Positions 5,122 through 29,069 of a DNA stretch of 47,368 nt are shown piece by piece. The position numbers and the translations under genes are program-made. The notes under the pieces are model-generated. The model had not been told where the DNA came from and ran no database searches. It saw only the letters and a list, made by a program, of their open reading frames with translations. This DNA is from an uncultured Saprospiraceae bacterium (GTDB taxonomy: Bacteria > Bacteroidota > Bacteroidia > Chitinophagales > Saprospiraceae). How positions within the stretch are numbered: position 1 is the first letter of the stretch; each line of letters opens with the position of its first letter. Location: NCBI GenBank assembly GCA_937921555.1, contig CAKZUV010000080.1:1-47368 (forward strand), given 5' to 3'.

Positions 5122-5194
5122 GGGAGCCACGAAACTTGGAAATGAAGTTCTCCGGACAAGCGGTAGACACGAAGTTTCTATATGATTATAATTA

Positions 5195-5241
5195 CCACGA
5201 AGTCACGAAGAACACGAAGTTTTTTCTTCGTGACTTCGTGG
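5195..5241. repeat. Perfect 16-bp inverted repeat, CCACGAAG family
   Basis: CCACGAAGTCACGAAG at 5195-5210 is exactly complementary to CTTCGTGACTTCGTGG at 5226-5241, with a 15-base loop that itself contains CACGAAG and a T-run. It lies between the M48 gene and ade and could work as a transcription terminator in either direction. The same CACGAAG-type wording recurs just upstream (5126-5173) and at 11676-11733, so it looks like a dispersed repeat. Confidence 0.8.
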
Positions 5242-5349
5242 CAAAACAAAATACTCAGGGCAGGCAGCGAGGAATTATTTAGATTAAAATAACAATCAAA
5301 TAATAACTTCCACATCTGTGGCTAAAAGAATTTACAAACATTTTTTACT

Positions 5350-9061: not shown

Positions 9062-9106
9062 AAAGCCATTATTTCCCGTATAACGGAAATAATGGCTTTT
9101 GTTTTT
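9062..9106 (+). terminator. Rho-independent terminator after PD40-OmpA paralogue 1
   Basis: A perfect 15-bp stem, AAAGCCATTATTTCC at 9062-9076 with GGAAATAATGGCTTT at 9085-9099, has an 8-base loop and is followed by TGTTTTT. It separates the two PD40-OmpA genes into different transcription units. Confidence 0.8.
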
Positions 9107-21665: not shown

Positions 21666-24122
21666 ATGAAAATCCTTAAATTCGGTGGTTCTTCCGTGGC
21701 AAAACCGGAAAGAATAAAAAATGTTATTAACATTCTTAAAACCTACGACGCCCAGAACGAACGGTTCGCAGTCGTCTTTTCAGCGTTTGGTGGAGTTACC
21801 GATCAGTTGATTGAAATGAGCCGGCGGGCAGAAGAGGGCGATCATTCTTACGAAGATATTTTTAACGAATTTTCAGACCGGCACCGCGAAGCCGTTAAAG
21901 TACTCCTGGAAGGACCACTTCAGGAGGAAATTTTAAAAGAGCTGGAAGAAAACCACGCAGTTCTGAAAAATCTGCTCTACGGAATTCTGCTGGTTCGCGA
22001 AGCCTCTACCCGGACCATGGATTATGTCCTGAGCTTTGGCGAAAGAAATTCGTGCTTCATTATCAGTCATGCTTTAAAACAGGCAGGAATGGACGCACAT
22101 TATCTGGATGCCCGCAAAATTATTAAAACGGACAAAAGTTTTGGCACGGCCAAGGTAGCGTTATCCACTACTTATCAACAAATTGAAGATTATTTTGCCG
22201 AACATCCTGGTATTCATATCACCACCGGATTTATCAGTGCTGCCAAAGGTGGTCTGACGACAACGCTTGGCCGTGGTGGTTCGGATTATACCGCTGCCTT
22301 GCTCGCCGCCGGACTCAACGCCAGTTTGATTGAAATCTGGACCGACGTAGATGGGGTACTTACCGCCGATCCCCGAAAGGTTAAATCCGCCTTTACCATT
22401 CCGGAAATGACTTACGCCGAGGCCATGGAAATGTCTCACTTTGGTGCAAAAGTAATTTATCCGCCTACCCTTCAGCCGGCTTTATCCAAAAATATTCCGC
22501 TGACCATCCGTAATACTTTTAATCCCGAATTTCCGGGCACCCTGATTTCGGATCATTCTTCTAAAAACGGACATCCCGTCCGGGGAATTTCTTCGACCAG
22601 CAATATTGCGCTGCTTACTTTACAGGGCGGCGGTTTATTCGGCGTCCCCGGAATTGCAGCTCGTCTGTTCAGTGCCCTGGCGCAGGCGGGCATCAACATT
22701 ATTCTGATCACCCAAGGATCTTCCGAGCACTCTATCAGTTTTGCCGTGCAGCCACAATTTGCCAGAAAAGCGAAAAAGCGGGTTGAATCGGCTTTCGAAT
22801 ATGAAATTAAAAGCAAACTCGTCGATCCGGTCAAAGTAGAAGAAGATTTATCGGTCGTTGCGATTATTGGCGAAAATATGCGCTACCAACCGGGAATTTC
22901 AGGCCGTTTGTTTCAGGCATTGGGCAAAAACGGAATTAACTGTATTGCAATTGCTCAGGGATCTTCCGAGTTGAATATCTCCGTGGTTATCCCGCGTAGC
23001 GACGAAGGAAAAGCACTCAACTCCCTCCACGAATCTTTTTTCCTTTCCGATACCCGGGAGTTACACGTGTTTATGGTCGGGGTGGGGTTGATTGGTTCCA
23101 CATTACTTGAGCAAATTAAAAAGCAAACCACTTTTCTCAAAGAAAAAAGACATCTGACCATTAAGATCGTTGGTTTAACCAATAGCAGAAAAATGCTTTT
23201 TTCTACCGATGGCATTGACCTTGAAAACTGGAAAGAACAACTGGACAATAGCTCTGAAAAAATGGTATTAGGTGATTTTGTTAAAAAAATGAAAAACCTT
23301 AACCTTTCAAATACAATATTTGTAGATAATACTGCCGATGAAACCATTGCCCAGAAATACCATGAAATTCTCGATGCCAGTATTTCCATTTCGACTCCTA
23401 ACAAGATTGCTACCTCCTCTACTTATTTACAGTATCAGCAATTAAAATCGCTGGCCGAAAAGAGAGGTGTTCAGTTTTTATATGAAACCAACGTTGGCGC
23501 CGGTCTTCCGGTTATTTCCACCCTGAGAGATTTGATTGATAGTGGAGATGAGATTTTAAAAATAGAAGGTGTCTTATCGGGATCACTTTCCTTTATTTTT
23601 AATTCTTTCGGTCCGGGTATGAATTTTAGCGAAATCGTCAACAAAGCAGCCGAGCTTGGTTACACAGAACCCGATCCAAGAATTGACCTCAAGGGAATTG
23701 ATGTTCGAAGAAAATTAATTATCCTGGCCCGGGAAACCGGATTACCACTCGAAGCGAAGGACGTTGAGATTGAATCCATTCTTCCCGAAGCTTGTATTGC
23801 CGCCGAGAGCGTGGCTGACTTCTTTGCAGAAGTAAAAAAAGCGGATGACTTTTTTGAAAAACGTCGTGACGCTGCCGCCGCAGAAAATAAAGTTCTAAGA
23901 ATGGTCGCTACTTTGGAAAATAATCACGCCAGAATAAAATTAGAATCCGTAGCGCCGGATCATCCTTTTTATTCCCTCAGTGGCAGTGACAATATGATTG
24001 TTTTTACTACCCAGAGATACAAAGATCGTCCCCTGGTCATTCGTGGTCCGGGTGCCGGAGCAGAAGTAACCGCAGCCGGAGTTTTTGCCGAAATAATTTC
24101 AATTGGCAACTCATTACATTGA
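21666..24122 (+). CDS. thrA: Bifunctional aspartate kinase / homoserine dehydrogenase
   Basis: An 818-residue fusion enzyme catalysing the first and third steps from aspartate to threonine and methionine. The N-terminal aspartokinase opens with KFGGSSVAKPERI, followed by FGERNSCFIISHAL and GRGGSDYTAALLAAGL. Two ACT-type regulatory domains occupy about residues 300-460 (GVPGIAARLFSALAQAGINI and QPGISGRLFQALGKNGINC). The homoserine dehydrogenase part starts near residue 466 with FMVGVGLIGSTLLEQI (NAD(P) binding) and contains GVLSGSLSFIFNSF. It is the first gene of a complete thrABC operon; feedback inhibition by threonine through the ACT domains is expected. No leader peptide rich in Thr/Ile codons was seen upstream. 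Confidence 0.95.
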   Translation: MKILKFGGSSVAKPERIKNVINILKTYDAQNERFAVVFSAFGGVTDQLIEMSRRAEEGDHSYEDIFNEFSDRHREAVKVLLEGPLQEEILKELEENHAVLKNLLYGILLVREASTRTMDYVLSFGERNSCFIISHALKQAGMDAHYLDARKIIKTDKSFGTAKVALSTTYQQIEDYFAEHPGIHITTGFISAAKGGLTTTLGRGGSDYTAALLAAGLNASLIEIWTDVDGVLTADPRKVKSAFTIPEMTYAEAMEMSHFGAKVIYPPTLQPALSKNIPLTIRNTFNPEFPGTLISDHSSKNGHPVRGISSTSNIALLTLQGGGLFGVPGIAARLFSALAQAGINIILITQGSSEHSISFAVQPQFARKAKKRVESAFEYEIKSKLVDPVKVEEDLSVVAIIGENMRYQPGISGRLFQALGKNGINCIAIAQGSSELNISVVIPRSDEGKALNSLHESFFLSDTRELHVFMVGVGLIGSTLLEQIKKQTTFLKEKRHLTIKIVGLTNSRKMLFSTDGIDLENWKEQLDNSSEKMVLGDFVKKMKNLNLSNTIFVDNTADETIAQKYHEILDASISISTPNKIATSSTYLQYQQLKSLAEKRGVQFLYETNVGAGLPVISTLRDLIDSGDEILKIEGVLSGSLSFIFNSFGPGMNFSEIVNKAAELGYTEPDPRIDLKGIDVRRKLIILARETGLPLEAKDVEIESILPEACIAAESVADFFAEVKKADDFFEKRRDAAAAENKVLRMVATLENNHARIKLESVAPDHPFYSLSGSDNMIVFTTQRYKDRPLVIRGPGAGAEVTAAGVFAEIISIGNSLH

Positions 24123-24154: not shown

Positions 24155-25090
24155 ATGAAAAGTGGAATAAAAGTTTTTGCTCCGGCTACCGTTGCCAATG
24201 TTGCCTGCGGATTTGATATTTTGGGTTTTGCGCTGGACAAGCCTGGTGACGAAATTATCGTTCGCTTTTCGGATACACCCAATTTGCGCATTACCAAAAT
24301 AACCGGCTTAAAAGGATTAAAACTTCCTTACGAAGTGGAAAAGAATACCGCCGGATTTGCCGCACAACGTTTGCTGGATCATCTGGGAGAATCGAACCGT
24401 GGCATTGAGATGGAGATTCATAAAAAAATGCCCTTCGGCAGTGGCCTGGGATCAAGTGCAGCCAGTGCTGTTGCCGGCGTAATGGCCGTCAATGAATTAT
24501 TGCGTCGTCCGCTCACCAAGAGAGAGTTACTTCCTTTTGCCGTTCTCGGAGAACAAATCGCAGACAATGCCTATCATGCGGATAATGTGGCTCCTTCCCT
24601 GCTGGGAGGAATGATTTTTATCCGGGATAATCCCACACTGGATGTCCATAGAATTCCCGTACCGAATGGATTATATGCTGCCGTCGTTTATCCCCACATT
24701 AAGATACTGACCAAAGATGCCCGTTCTGTCCTCAGCGATCAGGTAACGCTCAAACAGTCTATTACTCAAAACGGAAACCTGGGCGGCTTAATCATCGGAC
24801 TTTCTACTGGAAATCTGGATTTAATCGGTCGTTCTCTTCAGGACGTAATTATTGAACCACAGCGCGCTCAGCTAATTCATGGTTTTTACGAGGTAAAGAA
24901 AGCAGCGCTCAAGGCCGGAGCTATGGGTTGCAGTATCTCTGGTGCCGGTCCTTCTATCTTTACGCTTTGTGCGAATAGTTTAATTGCCGAAAATGCAGGC
25001 AAAGCGATGCAGGCGGTTTTCAACGAAAAGAAAATTCATAGTCAGTTATTTATTTCTCCCATTAATCAGGAAGGAGCAATACTATGCTAG
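24155..25090 (+). CDS. thrB: Homoserine kinase
   Basis: A 311-residue GHMP-family kinase that phosphorylates homoserine with ATP. The ATP-binding motif PFGSGLGSSAASA is at about residues 93-105. The N-terminal APATVANVACGFDILGFAL and the C-terminal GAMGCSISGAGPSIFTL (motif 3) are characteristic of ThrB. It lies 32 bases after thrA and 70 bases before thrC, as the middle gene of the thr operon. Confidence 0.95.
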   Translation: MKSGIKVFAPATVANVACGFDILGFALDKPGDEIIVRFSDTPNLRITKITGLKGLKLPYEVEKNTAGFAAQRLLDHLGESNRGIEMEIHKKMPFGSGLGSSAASAVAGVMAVNELLRRPLTKRELLPFAVLGEQIADNAYHADNVAPSLLGGMIFIRDNPTLDVHRIPVPNGLYAAVVYPHIKILTKDARSVLSDQVTLKQSITQNGNLGGLIIGLSTGNLDLIGRSLQDVIIEPQRAQLIHGFYEVKKAALKAGAMGCSISGAGPSIFTLCANSLIAENAGKAMQAVFNEKKIHSQLFISPINQEGAILC

Positions 25091-25160: not shown

Positions 25161-26483
25161 ATGCAGCTTTACAGTACCAAGAATAAAAAAAATCTGGTGA
25201 CCCTGAAAGAAGCGGTCATGAAAGGCCTTCCGGATGATAACGGTCTTTTTATGCCCGAAAATATTAGTCCACTCCCAGAACGTTTTTTCAAAGAACTTCC
25301 CGGAATGAGCTTCGCCGAAACCGCTCAGGCAGTCGTAACTCATTTAATTGGAAATGATATTCCCCAGGAAGCGCTGAATCCGCTGGTAGCGGAAGCTTTT
25401 AATTTTCCGGTGCCATTGGTCCAATTAGACGATAAAACCACTGTACTGGAGCTTTTTCACGGTCCTTCGCTGGCTTTTAAAGACTTTGGTGCTCGTTTTA
25501 TGGCCCGACTGATGGGATACTTTAACCAATCGGAAAAAGAACGTTTGGTAATACTGGTCGCAACTTCCGGCGATACTGGTGGCGCGGTAGCTTCCGGGTT
25601 TTACAAAACTCCGGGTATTGAAGTAGTTATTTTATATCCAAGTGGAAAAGTCAGTCCGCTGCAGGAAAAACAACTAACGACGCTGGGACACAATATTACC
25701 GCACTGGAAATAGATGGAACCTTTGATGATTGCCAGGCGATTGTAAAAAAAGCATTTCTGGATAAATCACTCAATCAGCAATTGCGCCTGAGCTCCGCTA
25801 ACAGCATTAATATCGCCCGCCTTATTCCACAGTCACTTTATTATTTTGAAGCGTACAAGCAGCTTCAAATCGCGGGTAATACCCTGCCGGTTTCTTTTTC
25901 TGTTCCTTCCGGAAACTTTGGAAATCTAACTGCGGGTATTCTCGCAAAACGTATGGGATTGCCAATTAAGCACATGATTGCCGCTACAAATCTTAATGAT
26001 ATTGTCCCCAGCTATCTTAAAAAGGGCAAATACGAGCCTAAACCAAGCGTAAGAACTATTTCAAATGCCATGGATGTAGGAAATCCCAGTAATTTCGCCA
26101 GACTGGAAGATATGTACAAAAAAGAGCAGTGTCACACGTGTGACATGATGGGTATGGATATAAAGGGCTATGCTTTCGATGATGAAAAAACTAAAGAGAC
26201 GGTCAAATATATCTTTGATAACTTTGAGTATGTGATGGATCCACACGGTGCGGTTGGATACTTAGCTTTAAAAGAATATCAGCAAATGTATCCCGAGACA
26301 ACTGGTGTAATACTCGAAACGGCACATCCAGCAAAATTTATAGAAGAGGTAGAAGATATTTTGAATACTAAGATTTCAATACCAGAGCGGCTGGCAAAAC
26401 TGACTAACGAGCCCAAGACTTCGATTCGAATGTCTACAGAATATCAGGATTTTAAAGAATGGATCAGCAATCACGAATTTTAA
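25161..26483 (+). CDS. thrC: Threonine synthase, with an in-frame palindrome insertion
   Basis: A 440-residue PLP enzyme converting O-phosphohomoserine to threonine. The PLP lysine is Lys107 in LAFKDFGARFMARLM. VATSGDTGGAVASGF and PSGNFGNLTAGILAKRMG are cofactor-binding blocks, and NAMDVGNPSNFARL is family-typical. Residues 324-328 (Cys-His-Thr-Cys-Asp) are encoded by the palindrome TGTCACACGTGTGACA at 26130-26145. The same word forms the apex of the terminator that follows this gene. It falls in a region between conserved blocks that I recall as variable in length, so it probably adds a few residues to a surface loop without killing the enzyme. Confidence 0.95.
   Translation: MQLYSTKNKKNLVTLKEAVMKGLPDDNGLFMPENISPLPERFFKELPGMSFAETAQAVVTHLIGNDIPQEALNPLVAEAFNFPVPLVQLDDKTTVLELFHGPSLAFKDFGARFMARLMGYFNQSEKERLVILVATSGDTGGAVASGFYKTPGIEVVILYPSGKVSPLQEKQLTTLGHNITALEIDGTFDDCQAIVKKAFLDKSLNQQLRLSSANSINIARLIPQSLYYFEAYKQLQIAGNTLPVSFSVPSGNFGNLTAGILAKRMGLPIKHMIAATNLNDIVPSYLKKGKYEPKPSVRTISNAMDVGNPSNFARLEDMYKKEQCHTCDMMGMDIKGYAFDDEKTKETVKYIFDNFEYVMDPHGAVGYLALKEYQQMYPETTGVILETAHPAKFIEEVEDILNTKISIPERLAKLTNEPKTSIRMSTEYQDFKEWISNHEF
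26130..26145. repeat. 16-bp palindrome TGTCACACGTGTGACA inside thrC
   Basis: A perfect 16-bp palindrome starting exactly at codon 324 of thrC and read as Cys-His-Thr-Cys-Asp. The same 16 bases occur at 26514-26529 and 26687-26702. No other copy was seen in the window. Confidence 0.9.
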
Positions 26484-26501: not shown

Positions 26502-26541
26502 AAAGAAAGCCTGTGTCACACGTGTGACACAGGCTTTCTTT
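26502..26541. terminator. 40-bp perfect palindrome, terminator of the thr operon
   Basis: All 20 bases on each side of the centre pair. The lower stem is AAAGAAAGCCTG with CAGGCTTTCTTT; the apex is the 16-bp word TGTCACACGTGTGACA. A run of T and C follows on the plus strand, with A and G opposite. It begins 18 bases after the thrC stop and can terminate transcription from either side. Confidence 0.9.
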
Positions 26542-26675
26542 TGAAGTAACATCCAGCGTTCGTGTGGAATATCGAGTGGATAGAAAGAATGAGATAATCT
26601 GCCACCAAAGTTATTTAAAAGTATAAGAGACCGTTCATAGATATTTTTATTAGAAAATAATCACCTCAAAAAAAC

Positions 26676-26713
26676 TTAAAAGCCCATGTCACACGTGTGA
26701 CATGGGCTTTTAA
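26676..26713. terminator. 38-bp perfect palindrome, terminator of the convergent hydrolase gene
   Basis: All 19 bases on each side pair. The lower stem is TTAAAAGCCCA with TGGGCTTTTAA; the apex is again TGTCACACGTGTGACA. It lies 29 bases downstream of the leftward hydrolase gene. The lower stem differs from that of the thrC terminator while the apex is identical. The 134 bases between the two palindromes hold nothing I recognise. Confidence 0.9.
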
Positions 26714-26742: not shown

Positions 26743-27519
26743 TTAAGCTACTTTATGATGTGCGAGTTCATTTAAAAATATAGCCAGAATTTTATTGAAA
26801 TCATCAGGCTTTTCCATCATCGGTGCATGGCCACAATTTTTCACAAAAAACAATTGTGAATTCTCAATGTGTTCATGAAATTTTTCTGCCACAAAAGGAG
26901 GTGTTACCGTATCTTCACTTCCCCAAACCAAAAGCGTTGGAGCAGAAATTAAATGCAGCTTATCGCTCAAATTATGACGAACGGCAGATTTTGCAGTCGC
27001 AATCACCCGGATCGCTTTGTTCCGGTCATTGACAATATCATAAACTTCATCTACCAGTTCTTTGCTGGCAATCTCAGGATCGTAAAATATGTCCCGCGTT
27101 TTGTTTTTGATAAATTCGTAGTCTCCCCTCTTAGGGAAAGTTGATCCCAATGAATTTTCGAACAATCCGGAACTCCCGGTCAGAATAATAGAATTTATTT
27201 TTTCGGGTTTCGCAATGCTGTATAATAAAGCGATGTGCCCTCCGAGGGAATTGCCCAGAATATTGACCCGGTCCATTTTTTTATATTCTACAAAATCGGA
27301 GACATGATCCACCAGAACAGAGACGGAAACTTTATGAATCGGAGAATCAAGAATAGGAAGTATTGGAACGACCACATTAAATGATTTTGAGAAATGGTCG
27401 ACGATAGAAGAGAAATTGCTCAGCGCTCCAAATAATCCGTGAAGGAGCAATAAAACTTCTCCGCCGGGATTTGATTCAAGGTACCTGAATTCACCTTCTT
27501 CTTTAATTGTTAAATCCAT
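26743..27519 (-). CDS. Alpha/beta-hydrolase
   Basis: A 258-residue alpha/beta-hydrolase fold protein. The oxyanion segment is LLLLHGLFGALSNF. The nucleophile is Ser91 in LGNSLGGHIALLY. The acid is probably Asp203 in LVWGSEDTVTPP, and the base is His231 in KNCGHAPMMEKP. No signal peptide is present, so it is cytoplasmic. The fold resembles meta-cleavage-product hydrolases and other small esterases, but the substrate is not deducible. It is convergent with thrC, and upstream lies the candidate replication origin. Confidence 0.85.
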   Translation of the reverse strand: MDLTIKEEGEFRYLESNPGGEVLLLLHGLFGALSNFSSIVDHFSKSFNVVVPILPILDSPIHKVSVSVLVDHVSDFVEYKKMDRVNILGNSLGGHIALLYSIAKPEKINSIILTGSSGLFENSLGSTFPKRGDYEFIKNKTRDIFYDPEIASKELVDEVYDIVNDRNKAIRVIATAKSAVRHNLSDKLHLISAPTLLVWGSEDTVTPPFVAEKFHEHIENSQLFFVKNCGHAPMMEKPDDFNKILAIFLNELAHHKVA

Positions 27520-27599
27520 TGAATTTGATAGATGTTTGATCTGACAATAAATATAGAATATTTATCTCAGTAGGATACGACTATTTAAATATTATGTTA

Positions 27600-27962
27600 T
27601 AAAATTTCTGATTTTACTAACTTTTCCACGACTTATAAACATTTGTTAATTCAGAGGCTGTATTCTTGAAAAAGGGGAAATATTTTGGATAAAAAATCAG
27701 AGATTTCAACAAATAGCATGAGTTTATCCACATTATGTGCTTAAAGTAGCTAAAAAGAACAAAATTTAATCATTTTTTCACCTTTTCCACAAAGTTATCC
27801 ACAGTTTATTAAAAAAGAGGATAATTTTTCATTGAAAAGCTAAATATAAGCTAAACTATTGATAATCAAACACTTACAAATAAAAACATATATGTAAATA
27901 GCATAAAAACAACGCTTTAAAAGATTATTTTTAGTTATTCACAACTTATCAACATTATTTTG
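27600..27962. other. Candidate chromosomal replication origin (oriC)
   Basis: Part of a 443-base gene-free, very AT-rich gap with a cluster of DnaA-box-like 9-mers, all on the plus strand. There are two perfect TTATCCACA (27724-27732 and 27795-27803), TTTTCCACA at 27783-27791, TTATTCACA at 27935-27943, TTATCAACA at 27946-27954 and TTTTCCACG at 27622-27630. Long A/T stretches between them could serve as the unwinding element. Flanking genes are not dnaA or dnaN, but Bacteroidota origins are often away from dnaA. Against it: gene direction does not clearly switch here. Confidence 0.65.
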
Positions 27963-29069
27963 TTAAACTTGTCTCATTCGGAACTGATAACAGATATAAA
28001 GCATATTTATCATTAGTAATAAGGCGACAACCTGATGCAGAGAGGCGTAAACAACGGGTACTTTTCCAAAGCAGTTAACGAGCGTCAGAATACCCAGAGA
28101 AACCTGAGTTATCAACAGGGTTATTAACAATTTGGTAGCTGTACTTATATTTTTAAAATCAGGTAGATTTCTTTTCAGTCTAAACACCAGTAAAATTATC
28201 AATCCAGTCAACAAATACGCAGTACTCCGGTGAAAAACCTGTACCCAGGCTTTGGGAGCCACTGCCTGCTCGTAATTGATCAAATTATCCATCCCAACCC
28301 CACTACTCGTCAATGCTCCTAAAAACCGTTCTCCTTCCACAAAAAAGGGAAAATAAGGATGAATCAGTCCCGCTCGCATACCTGCCATCAATCCCCCCAG
28401 CAAAATCTGAATGACCAGCACTCCGGTCGTCATCCATGCGAATCGTTTCAATCCCGCCCGGTCAGCTGCAAAACCATCCGTCTGATGAGTCCGCAGCCAG
28501 GTCCAGAACAAATATCCGAATAATACCGTTGCAATTCCTAAATGGGTCATCAATTTATAGGCACTTACCCAAGTCCGGTTATCTTCGTTCAGTCCACTGG
28601 CCACCATGATCCATCCGAACGTCGCAGCAGCGGACGCCAGCAGAATCACCACACCAAGCCGTTTCAGCAACCAACCGGGTATCCATTTTTTATACAAAAA
28701 ATAAAAAAACGGAATAATAAAAACAAATCCCATCAGACGCGCCCAGAGCCGGTGAAAATATTCCCAGAAGAAAATAACTTTAAATTCAGACATCGTCATA
28801 TCTCCATGCAACGACTCGTATTGGCGACGGGCACTGATTTTATATTTTTCAAAAGCGACATCCCACTCCCCCGGATTCATTGGAGGCAGCGTTCCCTGGA
28901 TGACCGCCCATTCTGTGATCGACAATCCCGAATCAGTCAGCCGTGTGACACCTCCGATAAAAACCTGAAAGAAAACCATCACCAGTCCAATCACCAGCCA
29001 CCAACGTACCAGCCGGTGAACTTGTCTGGTAGCTCTTCGTTCTGAAATCAGCACATCTTCCATATTCAA
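27963..29069 (-). CDS. ctaA: Heme A synthase (COX15/CtaA family)
   Basis: A 368-residue membrane enzyme with about eight transmembrane helices that oxidises heme O to heme A for cytochrome oxidase. GGVTRLTDSGLSITEW (residues 39-54) is the family signature. Heme-ligand histidines appear in EYFHRLWARLMGF (His106), QVFHRSTAYLL and SLHQVVALLLM. The layout matches the COX15-type subgroup common in alphaproteobacteria, mitochondria and Bacteroidota. There is a second ATG at residue 3. No other cytochrome-oxidase assembly genes lie nearby. The gene ends at the edge of the candidate oriC. Confidence 0.93.
   Translation of the reverse strand: MNMEDVLISERRATRQVHRLVRWWLVIGLVMVFFQVFIGGVTRLTDSGLSITEWAVIQGTLPPMNPGEWDVAFEKYKISARRQYESLHGDMTMSEFKVIFFWEYFHRLWARLMGFVFIIPFFYFLYKKWIPGWLLKRLGVVILLASAAATFGWIMVASGLNEDNRTWVSAYKLMTHLGIATVLFGYLFWTWLRTHQTDGFAADRAGLKRFAWMTTGVLVIQILLGGLMAGMRAGLIHPYFPFFVEGERFLGALTSSGVGMDNLINYEQAVAPKAWVQVFHRSTAYLLTGLIILLVFRLKRNLPDFKNISTATKLLITLLITQVSLGILTLVNCFGKVPVVYASLHQVVALLLMINMLYICYQFRMRQV

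Follow-up and report, generated by a model that had tools for sequence, protein, structure and literature searches.

The thr locus and its palindromes

The window, that is, the whole stretch of 47,368 nucleotides analyzed here, contains thrA (fused aspartokinase/homoserine dehydrogenase, 21666–24122), a thrB-like GHMP kinase gene (24155–25090) and thrC (threonine synthase of 440 amino acids with the Pfam domains Thr_synth_N, PALP and THR4_C, 25161–26483), all on the plus strand. Convergent with thrC lies an alpha/beta hydrolase gene (26743–27519, minus strand). It is followed by a 443-bp intergenic region of 24% GC (27520–27962), which is flanked on its other side by a gene for a COX15/CtaA-type protein (27963–29069, minus strand).

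Two perfect palindromes without a spacer are present between the convergent genes, one of 40 bp (26502–26541, plus strand) and one of 38 bp (26676–26713, minus strand). Both are centred on the same 16-bp word, TGTCACACGTGTGACA (26514–26529 and 26687–26702, exact in either case), whereas their lower stems differ (GCCTG/CAGGC versus GCCCA/TGGGC). The initial annotation had described this arrangement, a shared apex on differing but compensated stems, and it is confirmed. No other perfect spacerless palindrome in the window is longer than 16 bp. The third longest is a further exact copy of the word, located inside thrC (26130–26145), where it encodes C-H-T-C-D-M in frame. Thus, one copy in the window is inside thrC, two are between the convergent 3′ ends, and none is upstream of a gene start.

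When folding was compared with that of shuffled sequences, the hairpins reached z-scores of −9.0 (thrC side, plus strand) and −8.8 (hydrolase side, minus strand), and in neither case did any of 200 shuffles give an equal value. From the position 3′ of thrC and of the hydrolase gene, respectively, and from the T-rich 3′ arms, we infer that both hairpins are intrinsic terminators. Elsewhere in the window, two inverted repeats (5192–5244, with 21-nt arms and 11 nt between them, and 9062–9099, with 15-nt arms and 8 nt between them) are probably ordinary terminators.

Allowing up to three mismatches, the word has four matches in the window, compared with a mean of 0.10 and a maximum of 1 in 100 shuffles. 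In the entire draft genome (5.44 Mb in 403 contigs), there are three exact copies, all within 573 bp, where about 0.001 would be expected from base composition. Additional copies with one or two mismatches were not found anywhere in the 5.44 Mb. With three copies confined to 573 bp, the word is not a HIP1-like repeat, and the earlier suggestion of a genome-wide iterated palindrome had to be dropped.

The putative replication origin

The intergenic region 27520–27962 is probably oriC, as judged from its DnaA boxes. Exact boxes (TTATCCACA) are present at 27724 and 27795, and boxes with one mismatch at 27684, 27783, 27935 and 27946. Six boxes were not reached in any of 2000 random sequences matched in local composition (mean 0.16, maximum 3). 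Within the window, boxes are densest over 450 bp that include a seventh one (28109), already inside the next gene, while 60 randomized whole windows had at most four in such an interval; both controls apply to the window only. The DnaA-box array was also found in all five congeners whose locus reaches that far. The three copies of the word are 1.0–1.6 kb from the cluster, and hence from the predicted origin.

In two relatives outside the genus (G022 and G024), the densest DnaA-box cluster is likewise located at or beside a COX15/CtaA homologue (three of the five boxes in G022 are inside it), 5–9 kb from canonical parS. GC skew over 340 and 380 kb of these two genomes was weak and did not place the origin at parS.

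Conservation within the genus

The genus was represented by the genome of the window (G000) and six congeners (G001–G006), all uncultured Saprospiraceae. In all six congeners, the word (at most one mismatch) occurs in one or two copies at thrC and nowhere else. With the same tolerance, it is present in all seven genomes of the genus and in none of 53 other relatives. The copy in the thrC coding sequence is exact in four of the seven genomes (G000, G001, G003 and G004) and one base off, TGTAACACGTGTGACA, in the remaining ones (G002, G005 and G006). In G004 (L010), an extra overlapping GACACGTGTC at the coding site creates a nested second palindrome in frame, so that the encoded peptide is E-S-D-T-C-H-T-C-D-M.

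The G004 contig ends before the thrC terminator, which leaves five congeners with a readable 3′ region. All five have an exact terminator copy about 30 bp past the thrC stop codon, in each case forming the tip of a perfect 32–52-bp palindrome with differing lower stems; GCCTG, GCCCA and GCCTA were found around an identical tip. The initial annotation had proposed that the apex is under selection of its own, apart from the stems, and conservation of the tip throughout the genus while stems differ bears this out. The third, hydrolase-side copy is absent from the five congeners readable there, each of which has a single non-coding copy. It may therefore be a local gain.

In a scan of 84,980 species, 97 stretches contained the 16-mer (80 were read for their flanks, 17 for title and positions). 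The six Saprospiraceae stretches among them are the six congeners. In Kiritimatiellae and Opitutae MAGs (on many contigs) and in Streptacidiphilus, the 16-mer is at the centre of longer palindromes with differing stems, mostly up to 44 bp and in one case 122 bp (L108–L187; for example, L108:3877, L126:5570 and L152:5561). It looks dispersed in these unrelated lineages and probably represents an unrelated repeat or operator there.

Canonical parS at the same places in other genera

The canonical parS core GTTNCACGTGNAAC was not found in any of the seven genomes of the genus. Outside the genus, the pattern TGTNNCACGTGNNACA is present in 46 of the 53 relatives, and among the matches listed, the sites are mostly canonical parS (TGTTCCACGTGGAACA, TGTTTCACGTGAAACA and mixtures of the two), with a few chance-like words. 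We read 19 of the 26 thrC loci from other-genus family genomes with a thrC match, and 4 of the 8 found in other families of this order, judging codon correspondence by flanking protein motifs. In 14 of the 19 family loci, GTTCCACGTGGAAC is located at the thrC codons that contain TGTMACACGTGTGACA in all seven genomes of the genus (as part of a full 16-mer in three of the 14). As a consequence, ThrC reads (C/S/G)-S-T-W-N elsewhere and C-(H/N)-T-C-D in the genus. GTTCCACGTGGAAC is lacking at these codons in the other five family loci (G012, G016, G020, G023 and G029) and in all four loci from other families.

A parS site was also found at most 150 bp past the thrC stop codon in 13 of the 19 family loci. 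Canonical parS can be at the tip of a long hairpin as well (G022, G024, G029 and G267; the G022 hairpin has two mismatches in its core). The initial annotation had also considered a mobile palindrome that lands in hairpin tips; this is at odds with the presence of canonical parS at the same places in sister genera. The distribution suggests that much of the family inherited a parS cluster in and after thrC, which the genus rewrote in place.

Three further observations concern parS-like sites outside the genus. G051 has three asymmetric sites (TGTTACACGTGGAACA) together with a ParB with H178 and N181, and is perhaps another lineage drifting in specificity. G102 has two parS-like words (GTTGCACGTGCAAC and GTTGCACGTGTAAC, C264:30561-30794) in which half-site position 4 is G, and canonical sites on other contigs. 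In G089 and G354, dispersed overlapping copies of GTGTCACGTGTCAC on several contigs are apparently a 7-bp tandem repeat.

ParA and ParB of the genus

With TIGR00180 and a congener protein as queries, ParB was detected in G004, G005 and G006, with one match per genome, and not in G000–G003. In G005, parA precedes parB in an operon, and the protein has ParB_N, HTH_ParB and ParB_C domains. A search of the window's genome did not find parA, parB or the gene upstream of them. The start of its contig C116 lies within the gene located after parB in G005, and the next gene along is also shared with G005, which places the parAB locus of this genome in an assembly gap. A second ParA-like ATPase of 254 residues is encoded in all seven genomes (in the window's genome at G000:C277:30777-31517), with no recognizable ParB among the open reading frames read next to it.

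The closest ParB within the family has 59% identity, and the best plasmid ParB among the matches listed has 46.5%. In a tree of 49 same-order sequences made by a quick method, the three genus ParBs form one clade with a long stem (0.78), placed among sequences of the same family with weak support. Within this comparison, which covered the family for identities, the plasmid matches listed and the order for the tree, descent is favoured over import.

ParB recognition residues

Residues were numbered as in Caulobacter ParB, using HMMER alignments with Noc and PMC7383237. In that study, Q162, G170, K171, S172, N178 and R204 are DNA contacts conserved across both ParB and Noc, while R173 and G201 are conserved contacts of ParB. 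Our alignment drew on 50 of 51 genomes that exceeded the cut-off (G041 was left out, and the G057 sequence is truncated) and the top 27 non-genus family matches from 358 matching genomes, three of which were already in the first set.

The genus ParBs keep R173 and G201, and have N at 170, Q at 178, I at 179, S at 181, R at 200 and I at 204. Q178 is found in all three and in none of the 71 other aligned ParBs, and the same is true for I179, R200 and I204. Among the 71, residue 178 is N in 67, H in 3 and G in 1, and residue 204 is R in 51, K in 18, V in 1 and M in 1; S181 occurs in three of them and N170 in one. A residue fixed in the genus and absent from 47 others was found in 8 of the 52 HTH-region columns, compared with 2 of the 84 columns of the N-terminal domain, 4 of the 33 between the two, and 0 of the 88 after the HTH region.

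The number of changes at conserved HTH columns was also considered as proof of a ParB switch, and rejected. The genus changed 5 of 16 such columns and is not an outlier, as G012 changed 6, G021 5, and G020 and G035 4 each. The argument therefore rests on which residues changed. Unusual ParB residues also occur together with canonical parS, namely H178/G181 (G035), G178 (G021), V204 (G022), K200/M204 (G213), S181 (G198 and G254) and N170 (G023). In G109, whose ParB also has S181, a canonical parS site was not seen (for G109, G198 and G254, the sites are those in loci L324, L323 and L325, respectively).

A probable variant centromere

In ParABS systems, ParB nucleates at origin-proximal parS sites, spreads from there, and works together with ParA and SMC (PMC7333895). 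Several properties of the word correspond to those of a parS site. It is a 16-bp palindrome with a CACGTG core, present in few clustered copies (3 in 573 bp) near the predicted oriC, and it matches the canonical parS of relatives in position. As for parA and parB, they were seen in three of the seven genomes, and in the window's genome the locus falls in an assembly gap. The half-site differs, as the consensus is GTTNCAC and the word has GTCACAC. As far as Table 1 of PMC7022226 was accessible, GTT at the outer half-site (including T3) is kept in every primary-chromosome parS seen. The variant breaks this outer GTT, so that by consensus it is not a member of parS. It nevertheless appears to behave as one in where it lies, in its copy number, and in its neighbourhood and partner gene.

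We conclude that the word is very probably the chromosomal centromere parS of the genus in altered form, and a predicted ParB site. The site change from GTTYCAC to GTCACAC appears to have taken place together with a change in ParB. We also consider it likely, with somewhat more reserve, that the ParB family has here, on a primary chromosome, a third natural specificity. Within one genus, the only ParB found would have switched jointly with all centromere sites, through N178Q and R204I (two of the contacts conserved in ParB and Noc) together with I179, S181 and R200, while the thrC frame went from S-T-W-N to H/N-T-C-D.

The proposed course of events starts from an ancestral family parS cluster in and just past thrC. 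In the genus, half-site position 3 would have changed from T to C and position 4 from Y to A, with the CACGTG core retained, and ParB would have acquired a new recognition helix. Today, ParB would load on the three sites beside the origin and spread, and ParA and SMC would separate the sister origins. Two of the sites would be dual, acting as parS in the form of DNA and as the tip of a terminator hairpin in the form of RNA. If ParB fixes the tip and pairing alone fixes the stem, stems are expected to vary and still pair, while the tip stays invariant.

In the literature searched, we found no earlier description of an altered Saprospiraceae parS, and the 16-mer itself only inside a primer table.

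Alternative explanations

Another dimeric DNA-binding protein, of the CRP/FNR or TetR type for example, could use the word as its operator and happen to have three sites where the thr operon ends. Half-sites of the form TGTCACA/TGTGACA do resemble regulator operators, and the 16-mer is also found in unrelated lineages, often at the centre of longer palindromes. This explanation is nonetheless improbable, given that no copy is upstream of any gene start, and that canonical parS occupies these places in sister genera, down to corresponding codons, while the genus is without the canonical core. A dispersed or mobile palindrome of the HIP1, uptake-sequence or REP/RPE type could explain why the exact word recurs in hairpin tips as well as within a coding frame, and why it is dispersed in some unrelated MAGs. 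Three copies in 5.44 Mb, none with one or two mismatches, and one or two copies in each congener, always at thrC, leave this explanation almost no probability.

Ordinary terminators could also resemble each other due to local duplication or gene conversion, the shared tip then being without function. The confinement of all copies to 573 bp and the missing third copy in the five readable congeners fit such an origin, and the initial annotation had held that only three copies would point to it. This rule fails here, because one copy is coding and because both this copy and the terminator copy persist across the genus (the former exact in four of seven genomes and one base off in three, the latter identical in six genomes). 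Duplication alone would not preserve an identical 16-bp word next to flanks that diverge and pair again, and conservation of the tip across species was observed, which makes this a very unlikely explanation. An assembly or chimera artefact deserves mention, as the draft has 403 contigs and palindromes are hard to assemble. Seven genomes with the word at homologous positions, some of them MAGs that differ in accession prefix and isolate-name series (CAL..., JALZUU...), and one copy in an intact reading frame reduce its probability to a negligible level. Altogether, two elements of the initial annotation persist in the variant parS interpretation, the selection on the word itself and, among the options it had named, a protein-binding site (as predicted from sequence); the iterated or mobile palindrome does not.

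Significance and comparison with known systems

Few DNA sites in bacteria are as conserved as parS. A protein that reads several sites at once should hardly change its specificity, and the genus offers an apparent natural case. Ancestor-like and derived sites are available at corresponding codons of one gene, together with ParBs for comparison, so that a change in ParB specificity becomes testable with natural ParB proteins. A terminator hairpin and a coding frame would each share sequence with a centromere site. The case also implies that parS searches based on the consensus can miss true centromeres. A change in ParB specificity was studied in PMC7383237 through comparison of ParB with its paralogue Noc.

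Like HIP1 and the uptake-sequence pairs, the word is a fixed sequence in inverted-repeat terminators. HIP1 and DNA uptake sequences occur in hundreds of copies or more per genome; by contrast, the window's genome has three copies of the word, and a high genome-wide copy number was not found.

Noc and its sites (NBS) in Bacillota are the known precedent for a ParB relative with changed DNA specificity (PMC7383237). Noc probably arose by duplication of ParB, and its sites are spread across the chromosome, whereas in the genus the only ParB found changed, and sites are clustered. The copies in the window's genome are confined to 573 bp, and G004–G006 have one ParB match each, unlike the NBS system. 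The residues involved also differ, namely 173, 179, 184 and 201 in Noc versus 178, 179, 181, 200 and 204 in the genus, and the DNA changed at half-site positions 1 and 6 for Noc versus 3 and 4 in the genus (Noc data from PMC7383237).

The parS sites of secondary chromosomes (Vibrio chrII and Burkholderia chrII) are off-consensus chromosomal centromeres as well (PMC7022226, Table 1). In comparison with these variants, the sites of the genus appear to have taken the ancestral parS places, beside the putative oriC, on what looks like a primary chromosome.

The closest similarity is to chromosomal parS itself (TGTTNCACGTGNAACA). The word shares with it the 16-bp palindrome, CACGTG core and outer TGT/ACA, the few clustered copies, and the location beside a putative oriC. 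It is found at the places of canonical parS in sister genera, with parAB in congeners. It differs in having GTCACAC instead of GTTYCAC half-sites, in the altered recognition helix of the ParBs found in the genus, and in that two of the genus sites are hairpin tips, a location that canonical parS also has in four other genomes.
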